From positions 1 to 52,558 of the forward strand of contig BQIW01000025.1 of the NCBI GenBank assembly GCA_021604105.1: a stretch of 52,558 nt of DNA, in the 5' to 3' direction. The stretch's first letter is position 1. The number at the start of each line of letters is the position of its first letter. The stretch comes from Nitrospirales bacterium. GTDB lineage: Bacteria > Nitrospirota > Nitrospiria > Nitrospirales > UBA8639. The translations under genes and the position numbers were made by a program. Below the pieces are notes generated by a model. That model did not search any database and was not told where the DNA came from. It saw only the letters and a list, made by a program, of their open reading frames with translations. Below are positions 16,227-30,316 of this stretch, piece after piece.

Positions 16227-17762
16227 CTACTTTTTGGGGGTTGAGCTGCTCGGCCGTTGAAGCCCTAACTTTCTAATCCGGCTCCTGAGCGTGCTGGGTG
16301 CCAATCCGAGTTGTTCCGCCGCTCCGCCCTCCCCCTCGATCTGCCAATTGCTGGAGGCCAGAGTCTGAAGAATATGTTGTCGTTCAAAATCAACTAATCC
16401 AGCCGGAGCCTTGGGTTCATGCGTCGCACTCTGAAGTATCAAAAGCCGTTCATCAATGCGCATAACCTTTTGGTGGGAGAGAATCACCGCCCGCTCAATC
16501 ACATTTTCCAGTTCGCGAATGTTACCCGGCCAGGAATACCGGATAAGCCGCTGCAGAGAATCCGGTTCAATCGTTTCGCAGGGCCGCTTGAGTTTAATGG
16601 CATAGTGCTCCAGGAAATGCTGGGCGAGTTCTGGAATATCTTCGGGCCGGGCACGGAGGGGGGGGATGGTAATCGGAAACACATGAAGTCGATAGAAAAG
16701 GTCAGCACGAAAACGACCTTGTTCAATAGCTGAAGGCAGATCGGCATTGGTCGAAGCCATCAACCGAATATCCACCGGGATAGATTGCTTGCCACCCACA
16801 CGATCCACCATCCCATCCTGGATCACTCGTAATAATTTCGCTTGGGTCTCCAAAGGAATTTCCCCGATTTCGTCTAACAACAAGGTCCCGCCATGTGCTA
16901 ACTCAAAACGCCCCTCACGCCTGGAGTCGGCTCCCGTAAATGCACCTTTTTCGTGCCCAAATAATTCGCTTTCGACTAATCCTGCCGGAAGGGCCGCACA
17001 ATTGACTCTAATAAACGGTTTATTCGCACGCATGCTCCAATCATGAATGGCTTGGGCAAGGAGTTCTTTTCCGGTTCCCGTCTCCCCCGTGATCAGGACG
17101 GTCGCCGTCGTAGGAGCAACCTCACGGGCAAGTTCCAGTACATGCTGAAAAACCTGACTCCGTCCTACCATTGCCCCGAAATGTTTTGTCAGTTTGAGTT
17201 CCTCTACCAGATAGATGTTTTCCCGTGCCAACTGCTGACGCAGCAGATTAATTTCCTCATAGGCCTGAACATGATCAATCGCATAGGCAATTTGCATGGC
17301 CACTTGTGATAAAAACTCAATGGCATCTGGATCCGGGTTACCCGCATCAACGCTCCCAAGGTTCAACACCCCCATACATTTTCCTCTGACCAACAACGGG
17401 AGGTTGATCATGCGTCCGAGTCCTTCCTCCACATACCATTGGTCTTCCAGAAAGACCTGCTCCTGTTTGAGATCAGGGCGAACATGTAACATCTTGTGAT
17501 CGTACACCCACCCCATTGCACTCCCAACACGCGGTATCACCGTATCACCTTGGACAACGACCCTCGCCAAATGAGTTGTCACAACATAAAATTGGAACCC
17601 GTCAGACTCACGGTCATATAAGGTCACACTGACCCTGGCCCAGGGCATGACCTGCTCAATCTGCTCGATAATGGCTTGCCAGAGACTGTTGGTATCCCGT
17701 TGTGAATTGAGCACAATCGCAACATTCAGAAGCGCCCGATAATTTCTCTCGATTCGTTCCAC
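16227..17762 (-). CDS. Sigma54-dependent activator, GAF-AAA+-Fis (NorR/FhlA-like), copy 1
   Basis: The 511-aa protein has an N-terminal GAF sensor domain (about residues 10-170), an AAA+ sigma54-interaction domain with Walker A GETGTGKE (226-233), the sigma54 contact loop GAFTGA (273-278) and Walker B LLLDEIG (294-300), and a C-terminal Fis-type helix-turn-helix (about 465-505; [20 protein letters not shown]). The GAF domain suggests direct sensing of a small molecule or gas rather than phosphorylation. The start is GTG at 17762. It is transcribed divergently from the FAD/NAD(P) oxidoreductase at 18024, a typical regulator-target pairing. A paralog is at 19046-20593 and a decayed tail at 7971-8150. 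Confidence 0.93.
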
Positions 17763-17859
17763 CGTCCTTTAATCCTTTCTTGGGTCAGATTCAAGCATAG
17801 TACCGAATGACCTGTCTAATAAGGGCAATGACCTTACCCTTACTTGAAACCTCTGAAGA

Positions 17860-17878
17860 CAATAAAATTTTTTTATTG
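17860..17878. promoter_or_regulatory. Perfect inverted repeat in the divergent regulator/oxidoreductase spacer
   Basis: CAATAAAA-TTT-TTTTATTG is a perfect 8-base inverted repeat about 145 bases upstream of the oxidoreductase ATG and about 100 bases upstream of the regulator start. Its place suits an activator or repressor site, but AT-rich palindromes are common and no binding consensus is matched. I see no convincing TGGCAC-N5-TTGC promoter in this spacer. Confidence 0.35.
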
Positions 17879-18023
17879 TTACGAAGTGAGGAAAAATGGA
17901 TTCGTCCTAATCTGATACGGAAAACCACGAGCCACCAATTGACTCAACACTATACCAAAACGCTAGGATATTATGAGTACGGAATCACCTCATCACATAT
18001 GCTACCGTCAAGGAGCGATCTCA

Positions 18024-18764
18024 ATGGGAAAACTCAACACGCCACCCATTTATCACGTGGCATTGCGAAAGCGGGAGGAAATCGCCAAGGAAACCATGGC
18101 GTTCTACTTCGATCGACCGGCTGATTTCACATTTACAGCTGGTCAGTTTATCGATCTGTCATTACCGAATCTTTCAACATCCGATCCGGAAGGCCATACA
18201 CGGGCATTAACCCTTGCCAGCGCGCCTTCCGAACAACAGCTTATGGTCGCCACCCGTATTCGGGACACCGCCTTTAAACGCATGTTGGCAGAAATGCCCC
18301 TTGAAACGACAATCAACATTGAAGGTCCGTTCGGACAATTCACCCTGCCATCAGAAGATTCCCGAACGATCGTTCTGCTCGCAGGAGGAATCGGGATTAC
18401 ACCTTTCCGAAGTATGCTGGTCGAAACCGTTCATCACAAACTCTCACATCATCTCATTCTCATCTACTCAAATCGGCATCCGGAAGATGCGGCTTTCCTT
18501 TATGAACTGGCAACCCTCCAAAAAGAGAATAACCATTTTACCTGCATTGGCACGATGACAAGCCAAAACGGAGGCACGGAAACCTGGGAAGGTGAAACCG
18601 GTCGGATAGACCATGTCATGCTTAGAAAATATGTTAAAAAGACGGAGACGGCTCTGTATTATGTCGTGGGGCCCCCTGCAATGGTTGATGGATTACGAAA
18701 GATGCTTGAGTCTATCGGAATTCCAAAGACCAGTATTCGCTCTGAAGAATTTATGGGCTATTGA
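18024..18764 (+). CDS. FAD/NAD(P)-binding oxidoreductase (ferredoxin reductase family), copy 2
   Basis: This 246-aa protein matches copy 1 (10726-11499) throughout, with the same flavin segment (FTAGQFIDLSLP, HTRALTLASAP), the nucleotide-binding start LLAGGIGITPFRSMLVE and the C-terminal YYVVGPPAMVDGLRKML. I chose the ATG at 18024, which has AAGGAG 8 bases upstream and aligns with the conserved start of copy 1; an ATG at 17973 is possible. It lacks an iron-sulfur domain. It is flanked by two paralogous sigma54 activators, one divergent and one convergent, so its expression is probably controlled by a GAF-sensed signal. Confidence 0.9.
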   Translation: MGKLNTPPIYHVALRKREEIAKETMAFYFDRPADFTFTAGQFIDLSLPNLSTSDPEGHTRALTLASAPSEQQLMVATRIRDTAFKRMLAEMPLETTINIEGPFGQFTLPSEDSRTIVLLAGGIGITPFRSMLVETVHHKLSHHLILIYSNRHPEDAAFLYELATLQKENNHFTCIGTMTSQNGGTETWEGETGRIDHVMLRKYVKKTETALYYVVGPPAMVDGLRKMLESIGIPKTSIRSEEFMGY

Positions 18765-19045
18765 AAATCTCATGAAGATTGAATTGAGTTCGTTAAGCCA
18801 TTGACGAGGGAAATTTTCAGAACTCCACAACGTAACCGTGATGGACCAATGAACAGATTCCATCATGATCTTAGCGAAGCAAGAGGACAGGACGAAGGTT
18901 CCTGATCTAGGGCGTTCGTATGCTCACTTCTCAATCGAGGGAGGTTTATTTTGGGAGGGCAAAAACGAGGGCATGACCTGATTGGAAAAGTTACTCCGGA
19001 CTACCCGTCTTCTCTTCTCAACCACAAACTCCACAATTGGTTGTA

Positions 19046-20593
19046 TTATTCGGAGTGCCGCTTGATTCCGAATTTTTTCAATCGGCTTCTCAGAGTGCTG
19101 GGATGTAACCCCAAATGCTTGGCCGCTCCTAATGGGCCATCAATTCGCCATTCACACGCGGCTAAGGCTTGTATGATTCGAGTGCGCTCCACGTCTTTTA
19201 ATTGAGTGGGCGGCATGGCATCCATGTCCTTTACCGGTGACTGCAATAACGAGTCTTCCACTTGCACAACCGACGATTGGCAAAGAATCATGGCTCGTTC
19301 AATCACATTTTTCAGTTCCCGTACATTACCCGGCCATGGATACTGAACCAGCATTTCCATTGAACGATCATCGATTTCCTGACAGTTTCGTCGAAATTGC
19401 AGCCGATTTTTCTCCATGAAATGTCGCACAAGAAGGGGAATATCATGCAGACGTTCACGGAGAGGAGGTACCACAATCGGAAAAACATGCAGTCGGTAAT
19501 ATAGGTCTGAACGAAAACGCCCCTCAGCAATCGCCTTGCTTAAATCGCTATTGGTCGCCGCGATAATTCGCACATCGACGGTTTTGCCTTCGATACTGCC
19601 GACTCGTTCCACGATGCCATCTTGCAAAACCCTCAGAAGTTTTGCCTGCGCTTCAACCGGCATCTCCCCGATTTCATCAAGAAACAAGGTGCCGCCATTG
19701 GCTAATTCAAATTTGCCGGGCCTTCCATTCTCCGCACCGGTAAATGCGCCTTTTTCATGACCGAAGAGTTCACTTTCCACCAACCCCGAAGGCAAGGCCG
19801 CACAATTGACTCGAACAAAAGGCTTTACTTGGCGTGGGCTCAACTCATGTATTAACCGTGCTAATAGCTCTTTCCCTGTTCCCGTTTCCCCCATAATGAG
19901 CACGGAGGTCGTGGTTGGGGCAACGGCCTGGGCCAGTTCCAGCACATTTTTAAACTTTTGACTGTTTCCAACCATCGCTCCAAAATCGTGCGAAACTTTG
20001 ATTTCTTCTAGGAGATAGGCATTTTCACGAGCGAGTTGATCCTTCAAGTAGTGAATCTCTTCGTAAGCCCGCACGTGGTCAATGGCAAAAGCAATTTGAG
20101 TCGCCACTTGGCGCAAAAACAGGACGTTTTCCGGATCAGGTTCTCCCGATTCCACACTGCCGATATTCAAAGATCCGATGCAATTATCCCCGACAATCAT
20201 GGGAATATTGATCATTCTTCCCAGACCCTCTTCGTGATAAAACGCATCTTCTAAAAATACCGGATTTTGCTGTATATTGGGACGAACATGAAGACGCCGG
20301 TGGTTATACACCCATCCCATGGCACTGCCTTCTCGAGGGATGATGGCATCACATTTCAACTTCACCACTGACATACTGGTTTCCACCGCGTAAAACCGGA
20401 AGGCATCTATGTCAGAATGATACAGCGTAATCCCCGCACGTTCCCAAGGGATCACCTTTTTAATATGTCCCGTAATGGCTTTCCACAGACCTTCCGAATT
20501 CCGTTGGGAATTTAAGATGTTCGTGACTTCCAGCAAAGTTTGATAGAAGGACCGGTTTAGTTGGTCGGTTAGGTGATTCATTTCGACTATCAT
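19046..20593 (-). CDS. Sigma54-dependent activator, GAF-AAA+-Fis (NorR/FhlA-like), copy 2
   Basis: This 515-aa paralog of the regulator at 16227-17762 has the same order of domains: GAF (about residues 15-175), AAA+ with [14 protein letters not shown] and LFLDEIGE, and a Fis-type helix-turn-helix (AAKHLGLHPSTLRSRLKKFG). Sequence similarity extends into the GAF domain ([17 protein letters not shown] against [17 protein letters not shown]), so the two may sense related signals. The start has GAGGGG 6 bases upstream. It converges on the oxidoreductase at 18024-18764. The exported coiled-coil genes lie upstream on the same strand. Confidence 0.93.
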   Translation of the reverse strand: MIVEMNHLTDQLNRSFYQTLLEVTNILNSQRNSEGLWKAITGHIKKVIPWERAGITLYHSDIDAFRFYAVETSMSVVKLKCDAIIPREGSAMGWVYNHRRLHVRPNIQQNPVFLEDAFYHEEGLGRMINIPMIVGDNCIGSLNIGSVESGEPDPENVLFLRQVATQIAFAIDHVRAYEEIHYLKDQLARENAYLLEEIKVSHDFGAMVGNSQKFKNVLELAQAVAPTTTSVLIMGETGTGKELLARLIHELSPRQVKPFVRVNCAALPSGLVESELFGHEKGAFTGAENGRPGKFELANGGTLFLDEIGEMPVEAQAKLLRVLQDGIVERVGSIEGKTVDVRIIAATNSDLSKAIAEGRFRSDLYYRLHVFPIVVPPLRERLHDIPLLVRHFMEKNRLQFRRNCQEIDDRSMEMLVQYPWPGNVRELKNVIERAMILCQSSVVQVEDSLLQSPVKDMDAMPPTQLKDVERTRIIQALAACEWRIDGPLGAAKHLGLHPSTLRSRLKKFGIKRHSE

Positions 20594-21157: not shown

Positions 21158-21184
21158 AAAAAAAAGCCTGACAAAACATCAGGC
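21158..21184 (-). terminator. Intrinsic terminator of the first coiled-coil gene
   Basis: On the minus strand GCCTGA-N7-TCAGGC is followed by TTTTTTTT, a standard rho-independent terminator, about 130 bases downstream of the stop codon of the gene at 21312-21683. Confidence 0.8.
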
Positions 21185-21311: not shown

Positions 21312-21683
21312 CTACTCCGTCAGCTTGGCCTGGTCAGATTGCCTATAATGCCAAGCGATCTTCTCATTCAGGAGATTCGTATCTCCTTTCAAAGTCGAAG
21401 CAATATGTTTCATGGAACTTCTCTGAATTCCCTTTGGGTCAAAGTGTGGCTTTTTCTCAAAATGGGCAATCCGCTTTTCCAGCTGCTGAACACGGCTCTG
21501 GAGAGATTGGATTTCTCCCTCTTTGGCTTTTGCCGCAGTCATATGATCTTGAATCGACCAACCTTGCGTTTCAAGTTTCCAGGCAGAATTCTGTTCTTGT
21601 CCGTTATCACTAGCCAAAGCAAATTGTGGAAGCCCTAGGAACACACACACCAGAAAAGCTGAAATAAATAATTTGCTATTCAT
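21312..21683 (-). CDS. Exported coiled-coil protein, paralog A
   Basis: The 123-aa product has a clear signal peptide (MNSKLFISAFLVCVFLGLPQ, ending in FALA about residue 24). The mature protein contains WKLETQGWSIQDH, then a heptad-like stretch (EGEIQSLQSRVQQLEKRIAHF), then FDPKGIQRSSMKHIASTL and LLNEKIAWHYRQSDQAKLTE. AGGAGG lies 5 bases before the start. A close paralog is at 22534-22911, and the two share the same motif order. I do not recognise the family; the soluble periplasmic coiled coil suggests a binding or structural role. Confidence 0.85.
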   Translation of the reverse strand: MNSKLFISAFLVCVFLGLPQFALASDNGQEQNSAWKLETQGWSIQDHMTAAKAKEGEIQSLQSRVQQLEKRIAHFEKKPHFDPKGIQRSSMKHIASTLKGDTNLLNEKIAWHYRQSDQAKLTE

Positions 21684-21777: not shown

Positions 21778-21795
21778 ATCCATTTTTCATGCCAA
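21778..21795 (-). promoter_or_regulatory. TTGG-N10-GGAT promoter-like element for paralog A
   Basis: On the minus strand TTGGCATGAAAAATGGAT lies 95 bases before the start codon. The GG-N10-GG layout resembles a sigma54 -24/-12 promoter, but GG replaces the usual GC at -12. The same layout occurs upstream of paralog B (22979-22996). The assignment is tentative. Confidence 0.4.
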
Positions 21796-21859
21796 TAAGG
21801 TTTTAATAATATTTGCCATTAAATTCAATAATTTACACTCAAACAAAAAATAATTAATA

Positions 21860-21918
21860 TGTAACAATGTTACGCGTAAATGTAACAAAAATGAACAATT
21901 ATGTTACGTTATGTAACA
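21860..21918 (-). promoter_or_regulatory. TGTAACA operator array upstream of paralog A
   Basis: Five copies of TGTAACA or its complement lie in 59 bases, forming two inverted pairs: GTAAC-AAT-GTTAC (21861-21873) and TGTTAC-N5-GTAACA (21902-21918), with a single copy at 21881. The array lies 65-140 bases upstream of the promoter-like element, the usual place for a sigma54 activator site. An equivalent array is found upstream of paralog B. Confidence 0.6.
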
Positions 21919-22042
21919 CAATAAGCAAATCTTCAAACCATGATCAGAGCTCTGAAAGTTATCCATGGGACTGTTGAATATTGTAAAATTTTTGCCGTTT
22001 CATTCTCTTCTGAGTCACGGAGGCTCACCCGAGATAAATAGT

Positions 22043-22163
22043 GGAGTGTTCAAAAAGGCCGGTCCAGCAAGGCCGCAGCCGCTTGGACGAGCGGAGCGTA
22101 CGGAGGAGTACGTGAGCACGGCCTAGAGGCGAGAACGCCGCTGGCGGCATTTTTCAACACTCC
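22043..22163. repeat. Dispersed structured repeat, copy 1
   Basis: The 121-base element has terminal inverted repeats (GGAGTGTTcAAAAA and TTTTTcAACACTCC) and a GC-rich core containing CGGAGCGTACG, AGTACGTGAGCACG and GCGAGAACGCCGCTGGCGGC, each able to form hairpins. The core matches copy 2 at 33674-33819 almost exactly, while stem sequences differ in a paired manner. It lies in the spacer between the two coiled-coil genes. It has no ORF. Confidence 0.8.
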
Positions 22164-22533
22164 CTCCACCTAAAAGAATCTTGGCTCTGGATCGCTGACT
22201 CACTCAAGCTCCTCATACAAAACCAATTGAAACCGCATACAAAGCTTGGCGTGCGATCCCTGACTGCGAGGAAGTCTTAGCGGAACACACTCGCAAGAGG
22301 ATAGAAAGCAACCTGGAGTACTTCGTACAAGGCGGCTTCTGCCTCTAAAAAGAATCCATGCAAAAGCCGGTGAGGCCGGTCAATGTTATGTTCTCGAATT
22401 CGAAGTCAATGCTCCACATCGGCCCGGTGACGATAGAGTGGACAAGCTTCATCCACAGAATTGGCAAATTTCTCACAGACAGTTGATACCGTTAGCCAGG
22501 CAGGCCCTACCGATCTCTTTCCTGGAGGTTCTA
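22164..22533. other. Spacer with a possible gene fragment
   Basis: No intact gene is seen. On the plus strand a short frame near 22230-22348 reads KAWRAIPDCEEVLAEHTRKR and ends at a TAA. It looks protein-like but has no start or recognisable family, so it may be a leftover from a mobile element or deleted gene. Confidence 0.3.
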
Positions 22534-22911
22534 TTACTCCTCTTCTGTCAGCCTGACCTGGTCGGCTTGCCGAAAGTGCCAAGAAATCTTTTCATTGAGA
22601 AGCTTCTCTTTCTTTTCCATTGTGCTGGAAAGAAGCCTTAAGGAACTTCTGGTGAACCCCTTCGGATCAAAGTATGGCTTTTCCTCCAACTTGCTTATGC
22701 GTTTATCCAAATGCCGAATGCGGTCCTCTAAAGACTGGACTTCCTCTTCTTCAGAATTCGCAGCAGCGATATGGTCTTGAATGGACCAACCCTGGGTTTC
22801 CAGTTTCCATTCAGAGATCTGTTCTTTCGTAATCTCACCAGCCGAAACAAATTGTGGAATGCCTAGGAATAACCCCACGAGGAAAAATAACATCCATATT
22901 TTGTGATTCAT
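22534..22911 (-). CDS. Exported coiled-coil protein, paralog B
   Basis: The 125-aa product is a paralog of the protein at 21312-21683. It has a signal peptide (MNHKIWMLFFLVGLFLGIPQ, ending in VSAG), then WKLETQGWSIQDH, an acidic heptad stretch (EEVQSLEDRIRHLDKRISKL), FDPKGFTRSSLRLLSST and LLNEKISWHFRQADQVRLTE. I chose the ATG at 22911 because it aligns with the paralog start and follows GAGGAGG closely (2-base gap); the frame extends ten codons further. It lies downstream of the PAS-type sigma54 activator on the same strand, with a 535-base gap that carries the operator array. Confidence 0.85.
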   Translation of the reverse strand: MNHKIWMLFFLVGLFLGIPQFVSAGEITKEQISEWKLETQGWSIQDHIAAANSEEEEVQSLEDRIRHLDKRISKLEEKPYFDPKGFTRSSLRLLSSTMEKKEKLLNEKISWHFRQADQVRLTEEE

Positions 22912-22978
22912 GGCCTCCTCACTTCCTGCTGTATGCTTCAAAAAATCATCTATATTTTTTCATCTCCTAATCATGTCT

Positions 22979-22996
22979 ATCCAATTTATAGACCAA
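22979..22996 (-). promoter_or_regulatory. TTGG-N10-GGAT promoter-like element for paralog B
   Basis: On the minus strand TTGGTCTATAAATTGGAT lies 68 bases before the chosen start. It matches the element of paralog A at the GG pairs and GGAT, with the same 10-base spacing. It could be a variant -24/-12 promoter or a binding site. Confidence 0.4.
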
Positions 22997-23067
22997 TCGC
23001 CTTAAGGCCGCATTTACATTTAATTTCAACGGCTTAAAATCTGTTAATTAAAATGAACGTGCTGATA

Positions 23068-23118
23068 TGTTACATATAAATGAATCAAAGATGTAACAGC
23101 ATGATACATCGTGTAACA
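23068..23118 (-). promoter_or_regulatory. TGTAACA operator array upstream of paralog B
   Basis: TGTTACA (23068), TGTAACA (23092) and TGTAACA (23112) lie in 51 bases, about 70-120 bases upstream of the promoter-like element. Spacing and motif match the array upstream of paralog A, so both genes are probably controlled by the same protein. Confidence 0.55.
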
Positions 23119-23446: not shown

Positions 23447-25390
23447 TCAAATGGAAGGCGTGTTACGGCGAGAGGGAATTCCGAGACGTGACAGGCGACG
23501 ATACAACGTGAGGCGTGCGATCCCGAGCAGTTTTGCGGCAGCTGAACGGTTTCCTCCCGTCTGCTTCAATGCAGCGAGAATCTTCTCCTTATCTTCATCA
23601 TGGCTTGAAGTTATGTCTTCAGAGATGGCCGCTGAAAGACTTTCATCCTGAATCAGCACCTCTGGCGGTAAATCTTGCGGTCGAATACTCGTCTGAGGAC
23701 ATCGAATGACGGCGAATTCAATAGCATGTTTGAGTTCGCGAACGTTTCCAGGCCAAGCATAGGCCATCAAGAGGCGAAGCGCTTCATTGCTCACGGCCTC
23801 AACGGGCCTTCCTGTTGTCGCCCGATATTGATTCAGAAAATGGCTGATTAACAACGGGATATCTTCCCGTCGTTCACGCAGCGCAGGCAATAACACCCTT
23901 CCAACCCGAATCCGATACAACAGGTCAGCTCGGAAGGTTCCCGCACTGACATCATTAGCAAGATTATGATGGGTGGCCGCAAGCACGCGAACATTCACCT
24001 TGCGAAGCCGAGATTCACCAAGACGGGTAATTTCCCATTCTTGCAGGACCCGAAGCAGACTGGTTTGGACGGTGAGCGGGATATCCCCGATTTCATCCAG
24101 AAACAAGGTTCCTCCTTCAGCGGCTTCGATCAATCCCTGTTGATCTGATACGGCGCCTGTGAAGGCCCCACGCTTATGCCCAAATAATTGGCTGGCGACG
24201 AGTGATTCGGTTAACCCCGCACAATTCACCGCAATAAAAGGAAACTCATTGCGGTGGCTGGCTTGGTGAATGGCACGAGCGACCAATTCCTTGCCTGTTC
24301 CGGTCTCTCCCTCAATAAGAATGGTGGAATCTACACGCGAAAAATCCTGAATTTGCTGGAAAACCAATTGCATAGAATGGCTAGTGCCAATAAGATCCTG
24401 ATATTTGCCCGTCTCTCCCAATAATTGACGAAGGGTCTGCACCTCGGAGGCATCGTACAAGAAAAACATTTTCCGTTCCGGGTCTCGCGGATCATCCCGG
24501 ACATCCACATTGATCCAACGGGTGCACTCTCCACCAACCGCAGACATGCGAACCAAAACCTCCTGCCGTTCCACAGGAGAACGATGCACCATGTCCTCTA
24601 TTTGAGCATGATAGGATGGATCACTAAACAATCCTTGCCAGGATTCACCTGAATAATGAAAATCCGATTTTCCGCATAACTGTTGCGCCGCCTGACTCAG
24701 AAAGGTCACCTTTCCATCCCTGTCGGTCAGGGCAGTCCCAATATGCAATTGATTCAAAATAGCAATAAGATCATCGTGATTCCGCTGGATCTCGCCAATC
24801 AAGCCCTCTAACTTCTCTTCGGCTTCTTTGCGTTGCGCCACTTCCCGCGACAGCAACCGATTGGCCGTCGTCAATTCGGATGTTCTGTCCAGCACCCGCT
24901 GCTCCAGCACATCATGTGCCTGACGAAGAGCGGCTTGCGTCCGCTTCCGGTCCAACTGGAGTCGGACCATTTCTCCCAGTGAATGCAATAAATTTCGCTC
25001 CTCTTGCAGGAAAGGGCCTTCAACTTCCGTCTGACGTTCCTCCAGATACACAACTTCAATTTCACCCGTCGTTCCATCCCGGCAAATAAACTCCTCCCGC
25101 TGGGTCCACGGAGATAACACAAAATTAGGGGTCGTAATTTCCAGATGACCGAAACGAATCCGGGCGGCTGTGACCTCAGGGTATTGCCAGGAAGGCGGAA
25201 TAAGATCGGCAATGCGTTGAAGCAATTCCTGGTCCGATAAGTCTTCGTTGTGGAATAATTGCGTGGTGGAATGAAGTGCGGTCAGTTCCTTCACGCGTTC
25301 CTGGAGATCGTGCAACGTCCGCTTCAATTCTTGGTCAGAACCCTTCAATACGTGGCTATCGGGAGATGACAAGAACCCTTTGTCTTCCAT
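23447..25390 (-). CDS. Sigma54-dependent activator with coiled coil, PAS, AAA+ and Fis domains
   Basis: The 647-aa protein begins with a GAF-like sensory region (about residues 30-150), a long coiled coil (about 150-205; [21 protein letters not shown]), a PAS domain (about 205-320; [20 protein letters not shown]), an AAA+ domain with [14 protein letters not shown] and LFLDEIGD, and a Fis-type helix-turn-helix ([19 protein letters not shown]). There is no receiver domain, so it senses a signal directly or through a partner. It is not a close paralog of the two GAF regulators. Its nearest downstream genes are the two exported coiled-coil genes, which makes it a candidate regulator of them. Confidence 0.92.
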
Positions 25391-26187
25391 GATTTCTTCC
25401 TATGGCACTTTACAACAAGACATGTTCCCAAACGACCTGGGTTATTGTTCTAGAATCTTCGGAACTCTTCTCCGCATGAAAACCCTGAATGTGGTCAATC
25501 GATCTCTTTCACACTCTTGCAAAGGCTTCAGCCCGGTCAATAATGTGGGCTATGGCTTGGCCATTCCATCCCCTCATTCACCAAGATTTTCCGACTGGAC
25601 AGGGTGCTCATCACCCGTGCGCTGAAGAATCCTCTCCAATATTTCACACAGTAAGATCTATTATGAAACTAATCAACCAATTCTACCTGAACAAGATAGT
25701 GGAGTGACCAGACTTCTCCATGATATTGGTAACTTTTTGGGATTACTCAGGGTTATGTCTACCTTGGGTTTGGCTCGATAATACATCAGTTGGACGTTTG
25801 CCAAAACATCCCTAACATCCATAAAGAAAATTGCCATGAAATTAAATTCATCCCTCAAACAGAACATTCACATATGGGAAAATGGATGACCATCTTCCTT
25901 CGGGGTGTCCTGTTTCCCTCGCCGGGCATACCTCACCCACCCATGTTCAAGTAGTAAGGAAGGGTTCACTCGCCAATTTCAACGAAGAACAGGGAAACCA
26001 GAGAGGATGTTAAGAAGAGGACAAAGCAGGGGGCAGCAGTTCACAACCTACGACGACAAAATTTTATTATTAAGACCATTTTTTGACCAGAATATTCATC
26101 ATACGTTTCTCTGTACTCCACCAATCCGTATGGCAATGGATCAAAAACCCTACACTCCATTTTACAGAATGAAATGGATAATTTCTT
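25391..26187. other. 800-base region without an intact gene
   Basis: On the minus strand short frames around 25480-25570 read AIAHIIDRAEAFARV and SIDHIQGFHAEKSSEDSRT, separated by a stop, which look like remains of a coding sequence. Nothing can be assigned. No repeats or terminators are evident. Confidence 0.3.
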
Positions 26188-27492: not shown

Positions 27493-27960
27493 CCGAATCT
27501 CCCGGGAAAATAAAAAGCACATCAATAAAAATTACATGATTATGAGAGAGCATTCAAAATTTCTGACAGTCAAATTTCTCCTATATTTCTCACCAAAACG
27601 GTGCAACCACTATGCCCATCAAATTCAAGCCGGGAGCTAAGAAATTTCCCCATACATTTCAGGCTTGCATCCCGGAGAGAGACAATGAAAACACCTTGAT
27701 AAAAAAATCGAGCGTTGGCGCACAGGCCAGCATGAGCGAAATAGCACAATTACATCCCATTCTTCCCTGTGTTCTTAAATTTATTGACGGATTTCCTCTA
27801 CCAGCACGGCAGTTGGTGTTGAAGAGGGAACTAGTCTCCCTTCTTGAACCCTGTTATCCTGGCCAAGCGGAATCTTTCACACGTTCATCATGACGATGAC
27901 GCATCACCAACATGGCATCATTTGCATTCGGTCCAACCCGACATCAAGAATTTGGTCTAT
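27493..27960. other. Upstream region of the ABC transporter
   Basis: A plus-strand frame at 27612-27893 (93 codons) has no recognisable domain and ends where the extended reading of the transporter ATPase begins. It is probably not a gene. No promoter consensus was recognised. Confidence 0.3.
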
Positions 27961-28710
27961 ATGAAACCGTGGGCTCTGGAAATCCAACAGGGTAGCAAAC
28001 AATTCCCGGATGGCACCTATGCCCTTCAGAACATTGAATGGCGTGTGAAAGAGGGGGAAACCATGGCGCTGATTGGTGAGAGCGGATCAGGAAAAACCAC
28101 TTTCTTGCGTCTCCTGAATCGGTTGATAGCACCAACGACCGGTGCCGTCGTCATTCAAGGCGAGCCCGCCTGCGTACAGGATCCCATTCAACTTCGTCGA
28201 CGCTTGGGGTATGTTCCCCAAGATGGCGGACTCTTCCCTCATTGGACCATCAGGCAAAATGTCTGCCTCGTTCCCCACTTATTAGGATGGTCATCGAAAC
28301 AGCAACTCGATCGAGTCAACAAGCTCTTACCTCTCATGAACCTGAATCCCGCCCAAATTGCCGAACGTTACCCTATTGAACTCTCAGGGGGACAGCGACA
28401 ACGTGTGGCCGTGGCCCGTGCCCTGGCCGCCGATCCAACCATCGTCCTGCTCGACGAACCATTTGGAGCGTTAGATCCGCTGACCCGCCATGATCTGCAG
28501 GACCAATTTCTCTCCCTTCAAACCCAATTGCATAAAACCATGGTTCTGGTGACCCATGACATGTCGGAAGCATTCCGGCTGGGCGACCGGATTACCATCC
28601 TCAAAGAGGGACGCATTCAGCAAGTTGGAACTCCACACGAAATTCTCCATTCTCCTGCCACCCCCTATGTTCATTTGCTCGTTCAGCATTATCACGCTCA
28701 TCGGGGTTAG
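27961..28710 (+). CDS. ABC transporter ATPase, osmoprotectant/quaternary-amine type
   Basis: This 249-aa protein is the ATP-binding subunit of an OpuC/ProV-type importer. Walker A is GESGSGKTT (about residues 38-46), the Q-loop is in GYVPQDGG, the signature is LSGGQRQRVAVARAL, Walker B is TIVLLDEPFGALD and the switch His is in LVTHDM. It lacks the tandem CBS domains that many OpuCA proteins carry at the C-terminus. I place the start at 27961, where the conserved fold begins; the frame stays open to a TTG at 27844, and no clear ribosome binding site settles it. It is followed after 10 bases by the fused binding protein-permease, forming a two-gene transporter. Confidence 0.88.
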   Translation: MKPWALEIQQGSKQFPDGTYALQNIEWRVKEGETMALIGESGSGKTTFLRLLNRLIAPTTGAVVIQGEPACVQDPIQLRRRLGYVPQDGGLFPHWTIRQNVCLVPHLLGWSSKQQLDRVNKLLPLMNLNPAQIAERYPIELSGGQRQRVAVARALAADPTIVLLDEPFGALDPLTRHDLQDQFLSLQTQLHKTMVLVTHDMSEAFRLGDRITILKEGRIQQVGTPHEILHSPATPYVHLLVQHYHAHRG

Positions 28711-28720
28711 CAGGAAGGGG

Positions 28721-30316
28721 ATGCACACCTATCAATTCAGACAGCGGATCCGGAACATTTCTAGAATAATCGTGGTCGGACTTCTTGGACTGCTCTATTC
28801 TCTTTCTCTGCCTGTTTGGGCCTCGGACACCATTGTGGTGGGGTCCAAGAATTTTTTGGAAAGCCGGCTCCTGGCGGAAATGTTTGCTCAACTCATTGAG
28901 GCCCGTACGGAATTAATCGTCACACGTCGCCTGGGACTCGCCGGGACTCAAGTCTGTTTTGAGGCTTTAAAATCCGGGGGGATTGATCTTTATCCCGAAT
29001 ATACAGGAACAGGGCTCGTCACCATTCTCGGTGAACCGCCAATACACGATCGAGTGTCTGTTTTGAACCGCGTTCGCGGGGAGTTTCTTCACCGTTGGGA
29101 CATTTGGTGGCTGGCACCGCTCGGATTTGAGAATTCTTATGCCTTGGCCCTTCGCCGTGATCGAGCACAATCCTTAGAACTCCACACAATCTCTGATCTC
29201 GCGCGTGTAGCCCCACAGATGAAAGCCGGATTTGGGTATGAATTTATCCAGCGAGAAGATGGATTGGTGGGATTGAATAAATCTTACGGGTTACAGTTTC
29301 AGGAAGTAATCGGCATGCAACAAACGTTGAAATATCAGGCCACAGATAAGGGAGAGGTTGACCTCTTAGATGTCTACACCACAGATGGCCGCTTGGCTGT
29401 GTATGATTTTGTCGTCCTGAAAGATGATCGTCAGTTTTTTCCACCTTATGAGGCCGCAGCACTCGTTCGAGGGGAAATACTCAAACGTCATCCGGAATTA
29501 GGACGGGTAATTAGTTTGCTCACCAATGCCATAAACCCAACACGCATGCGTGAATTAAATCTCCGGATTCAGGAACAGGAAGAACCGGTTCCCCAAGTAG
29601 CGCAAAGTGCCTTACGGGCACTTGATCTTGTAGACGACAATCACGTCCAACCAGCCGCCAACACGGAATCTTCCGATTCCATTTTGTCCTACATGTGGAC
29701 CAAACGTTCCGATCTGGCCCTGCGCACAGGAGAACATCTTGGGCTTTCCGGACTAGGGTTGTTCCTGGGCATACTGGTTGCCATTCCATTGGGACTGGCT
29801 CTCGAACGGTGGCGAAAAGGAGCCGAAGCGATCATCCGAATAATCGGCATGTTGCAAACGATTCCCTCCATCGCACTTCTGGCCTTTATGATTCCGATAT
29901 TTGGCGTCGGAGCACTCCCTGCCATCATGGCCTTATGGATGTATTCATTATTCCCAATTCTTCGAAATACCTATTCAGGGTTACGAGACGCAGCTCCAAA
30001 TGTTGTGGAAACCGGGCGAGCCCTTGGCATGACGGAGTGGCAAATTCTCCGCACAATTCGCCTTCCACTTGCTGCACCCACCATCATGGCCGGCATTCGC
30101 ACCTCTGCCATCTGGACCGTCGGGACTGCCACACTTGCCGCCTTTATCGGGGCCGGAGGCTTGGGTGTCCCGATCGTGGCAGGGCTCCAACTTGCGGACG
30201 TCAATTTGATATTGTCCGGAGCCCTACCCGCAACGGTATTGGCCCTGTCGGTTGATGGCCTCTTGGGTCGAGTAGAACAATGGGCCCGGCCACGCGGCCT
30301 GGATCCGGTTCGATAA
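28721..30316 (+). CDS. Fused substrate-binding protein and permease of an osmoprotectant-type ABC transporter
   Basis: The 531-aa product has a signal segment (about residues 12-37, ending in VWA), an OpuAC/ProX-like binding domain (about 38-310; IVVGSKNFLESRLLAEMF, GIDLYPEYTGTG), then a binding-protein-dependent permease domain (about 325-520) with the EAA loop ETGRALGMTEWQILRTIRLP. One polypeptide therefore carries both parts. The ATG at 28721 has AGGAAGGGG immediately upstream. Substrates of the family are glycine betaine, choline, carnitine and related trimethylammonium compounds. In the EgtU ergothioneine importer the binding domain is at the C-terminus; here it is at the N-terminus. egtD lies about 375 bases downstream on the same strand. 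Confidence 0.88.
   Translation: MHTYQFRQRIRNISRIIVVGLLGLLYSLSLPVWASDTIVVGSKNFLESRLLAEMFAQLIEARTELIVTRRLGLAGTQVCFEALKSGGIDLYPEYTGTGLVTILGEPPIHDRVSVLNRVRGEFLHRWDIWWLAPLGFENSYALALRRDRAQSLELHTISDLARVAPQMKAGFGYEFIQREDGLVGLNKSYGLQFQEVIGMQQTLKYQATDKGEVDLLDVYTTDGRLAVYDFVVLKDDRQFFPPYEAAALVRGEILKRHPELGRVISLLTNAINPTRMRELNLRIQEQEEPVPQVAQSALRALDLVDDNHVQPAANTESSDSILSYMWTKRSDLALRTGEHLGLSGLGLFLGILVAIPLGLALERWRKGAEAIIRIIGMLQTIPSIALLAFMIPIFGVGALPAIMALWMYSLFPILRNTYSGLRDAAPNVVETGRALGMTEWQILRTIRLPLAAPTIMAGIRTSAIWTVGTATLAAFIGAGGLGVPIVAGLQLADVNLILSGALPATVLALSVDGLLGRVEQWARPRGLDPVR

Follow-up and report, generated by a model that had tools for sequence, protein, structure and literature searches.

Two tandem genes for predicted exported proteins

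The DNA analysed here, referred to as the window, is a stretch of 52,558 nucleotides from a Nitrospirales bacterium. It carries two tandem paralogous genes on the reverse strand. Gene A (21315..21683, (-)) codes for a 123-amino acid protein predicted to be exported and helical or coiled-coil, as judged by its open reading frame, its signal-peptide-like N terminus and its homologues in the genus, which are 73-97% identical. Gene B (22543..22911, (-)) codes for a paralogue 56% identical to A. Although the open frame of B extends upstream to a TTG, the ATG at 22911 is favoured as the start by the ribosome-binding site and by the homologues. Several genomes of the genus carry A and B together, and a second genus of the family has a similar pair (G028). 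Both proteins have a signal-peptide-like start, are predicted to be helical and share an invariant KP..D.KG..R motif. Neither matched a Pfam or NCBIfam family, and a search of solved structures returned generic coiled coils only.

Two genes for putative activators lie close to the pair: one upstream of B (23447..25390, (-)), with a PAS domain, an AAA+ sigma54-interaction domain carrying the GAFTGA motif and an HTH_8 domain, as assigned by domain matches, and one downstream of A (19046..20593, (-)), of the GAF-AAA+-HTH_8 type. In the region 16227-20593, two GAF-AAA+-HTH_8 activators (58% identical) flank a divergent FAD/NAD oxidoreductase gene (17973-18764), an arrangement that is syntenic in several genomes of the genus. 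Genes of a glycine-betaine/choline-type ABC transporter (27844-30316) are also found near the A/B module and are syntenic in G011 and G019. An intrinsic-terminator-like hairpin 3′ of A (21166..21184, (-)) is a consensus match only, and the count of such hairpins in the region was not above that in shuffles. The A-B intergenic segment 22043-22170 has inverted ends (GGAGTGTTCAAAAA ... TTTTTCAACACTCC) and resembles a dispersed repeat element; similar ends also precede genes in L045 and L038. No RNA described in Rfam was detected in the window.

A conserved layout upstream of A and B

A sequence-only reading of this DNA had proposed that each gene is preceded by TTGG-N10-GGAT, 68-95 bases before its start, and by a cluster of TGTAACA sites further upstream, five for A and three for B. 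Both elements were found where that reading had put them. The putative -24/-12 promoter of A (TTGGCATGAAAAATGGAT; 21778..21795, (-)) lies at position -112 and ends 95 bases before the ATG (21683), and that of B (TTGGTCTATAAATTGGAT; 22979..22996, (-)) lies at position -85 and ends 68 bases before the ATG (22911). These assignments rest on the TTGG-N10-GGAT match and on comparison with relatives. In the window as a whole, TTGG-N10-GGAT occurs 9 times (3.6 expected), mostly within open reading frames, and TGTAACA also occurs 9 times (3.5 expected; 1 of 100 shuffles reached 9). Since these counts are only modestly above shuffles, by themselves they are weak evidence. A further TTGG-N10-GGAT at 25726-25743 (+), between the PAS activator gene and the open reading frame at 25905, lacks a TGTWACA array and probably arose by chance.

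The DNA upstream of 22 related genes from 13 genomes was then compared. The -24 GG, the -12 G and the 10 bases that separate the -24 and -12 doublets are present in 22 of 22 promoters, the last being equal to the spacing at two other putative sigma54 promoters, and all 22 carry TGG-N8-TTG or TGG-N8-ATG. The exact GGAT is not universal, and GTAT, GATT, GATG and GCTG also occur among the relatives. At the equivalent place the G028a promoter has a canonical sigma54 sequence, TGGCGTTAAATTTGCT.

The putative activator-site array of A (21860..21918, (-)) is composed of five TGTWACA-type half-sites, three exact and two CGTAACA, with centres at -121, -111, -90, -77 and -69 from the TGG. The array of B (23068..23118, (-)) contains three exact TGTWACA half-sites plus TGTATCA, with centres at -120, -110, -100 and -76. 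Among the 22 promoters the half-site centres fall near -121, -111, -101, -90, -77 and -69, although each promoter lacks some of them and positions vary by a few bases. When up to one mismatch was allowed, the upstream block of the 22 promoters contained 100 TGTWACA sites compared with 20 ± 4 in shuffles, while 6 were found farther upstream (5.3 in shuffles) and 2 in the spacer (5.6 in shuffles). Furthermore, the half-sites are phased at ∼10.5-11 bp, a property unremarked in the sequence-only reading; none of 1000 random placements matched it, though the sequences are related and this is not an independent test. As the 22 sequences are not independent, the shuffle figures serve as a guide only. 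In a literature search, we found no description of a sigma54 upstream activator sequence (UAS) with a TGTAACA or TGTWACA half-site.

Between the half-sites and the promoter of both genes we observed an additional element, TAA-N4-TTGAA, which the sequence-only reading had missed. Its start is 39-42 bases upstream of the TGG in 19 of 22 promoters and, read on the opposite strand, it is close to the consensus for integration host factor (IHF). The textbook IHF consensus is WATCAANNNNTTR. The IHF-like element of A (TAAATTATTGAA; 21824..21835, (-)) starts 41 bases before the TGG, and that of B is TAAGCCGTTGAA (23025..23036, (-)); both were assigned by sequence match. Genes for IHF alpha and IHF beta are present in the genome, both above an NCBIfam cut-off. 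The consensus is perfect upstream of A in G003 and G015, and most other promoters have one mismatch, which counts against the IHF part of the interpretation.

The complete layout (TGTWACA half-sites, IHF-like element and TGG-N8-TTG) precedes 22 genes in 13 genomes with near-fixed spacing, and it is shared by the two paralogues and by different genera. In the DNA upstream of A, few stretches are as well conserved as the upstream block and the promoter. The sequence-only reading had also proposed a genome-wide search for TGTAACA clusters at a set distance from the promoter element. In pattern searches of 21 genomes of the genus, a composite pattern with fixed spacing gave 8 matches, every one at A/B loci, and the reversed control gave none. 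In the genome studied here, the composite with up to two mismatches matched A alone, since the spacing at B, shorter by one base, does not fit it, and the strict pair TGTWAC-N4-TGTWAC had no match besides the A array. The promoter and array elements are absent from the distant A paralogues of the same genome (C22, C59 and C105). Since the genome-wide searches match only A, they show no wider regulon, though these patterns would not catch sites that are looser or shifted. The spacing kept between A and B and between genera, together with the locus specificity of the composite pattern, is stronger support than the shuffles. A chance origin of the motifs in AT-rich intergenic sequence, as the modest window-only counts might suggest, is hardly credible in view of 22 promoters with near-fixed spacing and of 8 composite matches against none for the control in 21 genomes.

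The same region could be read as a sigma70 promoter, with TATAAA as its -10 element, under a repressor or under an OmpR/PhoB-type activator bound to 10-bp direct repeats. TATAAA is indeed present in several promoter copies, and the 10-bp spacing of the half-sites resembles that of tandem OmpR-family sites. However, relatives have ATGAAA, TTTAAA, TATGAA, TGTACT or TGACTC in place of TATAAA but keep TGG-N8-TTG or TGG-N8-ATG; a scan for promoters returned no sigma70-type match that overlaps the elements on the same strand, and no OmpR/PhoB-type regulator gene was seen beside A and B. We consider a sigma70 promoter very unlikely.

The base following the -12 G

The sequence-only reading had judged the GG at -12 unusual for a sigma54 promoter, and the comparison agrees. 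Of the 22 promoters, 14 have G after the -12 G, 4 have T, 3 have A and 1 has C, so that the GC doublet expected at -12 is represented by its G in 22/22 and by its C in just 1/22. The T or A of some relatives had not been noticed in the sequence-only reading. At two other putative sigma54 promoters of the genus, in contrast, C was found in 8/8 and 8/8 orthologues (16/16). These canonical-looking sites (TTGC; at about 1501 in both L081 and L087), which are conserved in the genus, are intergenic and lie before a gene resembling an exopolysaccharide-export gene and before a response-regulator-like gene. They are predicted promoters chosen for having C in this genome, and they show that, where it occurs, C persists across the genus. 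Hence, the lack of C belongs to the A/B promoter family and not to the genus. The absence of the second -12 base in 21/22 promoters, though the genus keeps C at two other putative promoters, counts against a sigma54 assignment. Two RpoN paralogues, considered as a cause of the GG, were rejected, as the genome has a single RpoN, with an ordinary RpoN box.

At the NtrC-dependent RpoN promoters of Escherichia coli the -12 GC is weakly conserved, and this has been linked to complex stability (PMC8743547); an activator-reliant A/B promoter is thus a reasonable reading. The locus-specific lack of C suggests that the A and B promoters are tuned to rely on their activator. A stronger version, in which selection bars the consensus C and thereby restricts opening by sigma54 polymerase to this activator, and in which the activator or sigma54 region I perhaps reads the -12 base, is a speculation that we regard as rather doubtful.

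Candidate activators and a proposed mode of regulation

The sequence-only reading had pointed to the adjacent PAS-type activator gene. Its product (23447-25390) has the characters of a bacterial enhancer-binding protein (bEBP), namely a sigma54-interaction AAA+ domain, the GAFTGA motif and a Fis-type HTH. In core-group genomes the gene lies immediately before B; it adjoins A-like genes in G000, G003, G004, G011, G013, G015, G017, G019, G020, G028, G024, G010 and G032, and codes for a recognition helix that is near-identical among relatives. In the last four of these genomes its relatives (62-74% identical) adjoin A-like genes that are preceded by arrays of TGTWACA or TGAAACA. The GAF activator (19046-20593) is a weaker candidate. 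Sigma54-dependent promoters whose arrays are bound by this protein, or by both activators, would be compatible with its sigma54-interaction and HTH_8 domains and with its gene's synteny next to A among core-group genomes (86-97% identical). In G010, G024, G028 and G032, however, its orthologues (70-76%) are on other contigs or far off, whereas the arrays and the PAS activator remain with the A-like genes, so that only the PAS activator keeps its linkage across genera. A role for the GAF protein at the arrays is therefore unlikely. The PAS protein is likely the driver of A and B, on the strength of a linkage that does not prove which activator binds.

We propose, with a probability of about 0.8, that A and B have a pair of sigma54 enhancer-dependent promoters driven by the PAS activator. 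As the sequence-only reading had supposed, sigma54 promoters with upstream activator sites best account for the inter-genus layout, the TGGCGTTAAATTTGCT of G028a, the IHF-like element, the GAFTGA/HTH_8 activator and the presence of RpoN. A separate RpoN-dependent promoter would transcribe each gene. The PAS-AAA+-Fis protein would occupy the phased TGTWACA half-sites, some 70-120 bp ahead of the -24 element, probably in the form of several dimers that come together as a hexamer. With the DNA bent by IHF at TAA-N4-TTGAA, the activator would then remodel the closed complex of sigma54 and polymerase at the expense of ATP. This closed complex is probably weaker where G, T or A stands for C at -12, which would make expression strictly activator-dependent. 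In published cases, the distance of sigma54 UASs upstream from the promoter is about 70-150 bp (PMC3844500).

The A/B family shares with glnA, nifH and Pu-type sigma54 promoters with IHF a putative UAS array, an IHF-like candidate bend site, the -24 GG, the 10-base spacing, the -12 G and a GAFTGA bEBP, but differs from them in the TGTWACA half-site and in having G, T or A for the -12 C in 21/22 promoters. The zraP gene, which is controlled by ZraR, codes for a small exported helical protein and has its sigma54 activator encoded nearby. A and B are likewise predicted small exported helical proteins near a sigma54-activator gene; unlike in that system, a PAS domain but no receiver domain was identified in the likely A/B activator, and A and B match no Pfam or NCBIfam family. 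By this likeness A and B may be envelope-stress proteins, which is a guess. PEP-CTERM genes with PrsR offer another parallel: a conserved upstream box and a sigma54 motif precede single exported-protein genes, with a matching Fis-type activator (PMC1569441). A and B too are single genes for predicted exported proteins with an upstream box, a sigma54 motif and a putative Fis-type activator. The -12 GC, however, is present in PEP-CTERM promoters (PMC1569441), A and B were placed in no NCBIfam family, and their putative regulator scores under the PEP_resp_reg cut-off.

A promoter family without the -12 C, inside genomes that keep C elsewhere, is a natural experiment on the role of that base in sigma54 promoters. 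The locus represents a compact conserved regulatory module of Nitrospirales that joins an uncharacterised exported-protein family to a predicted activator and a predicted operator; since the last two are contained in one module, the activator-site pairing is directly testable.
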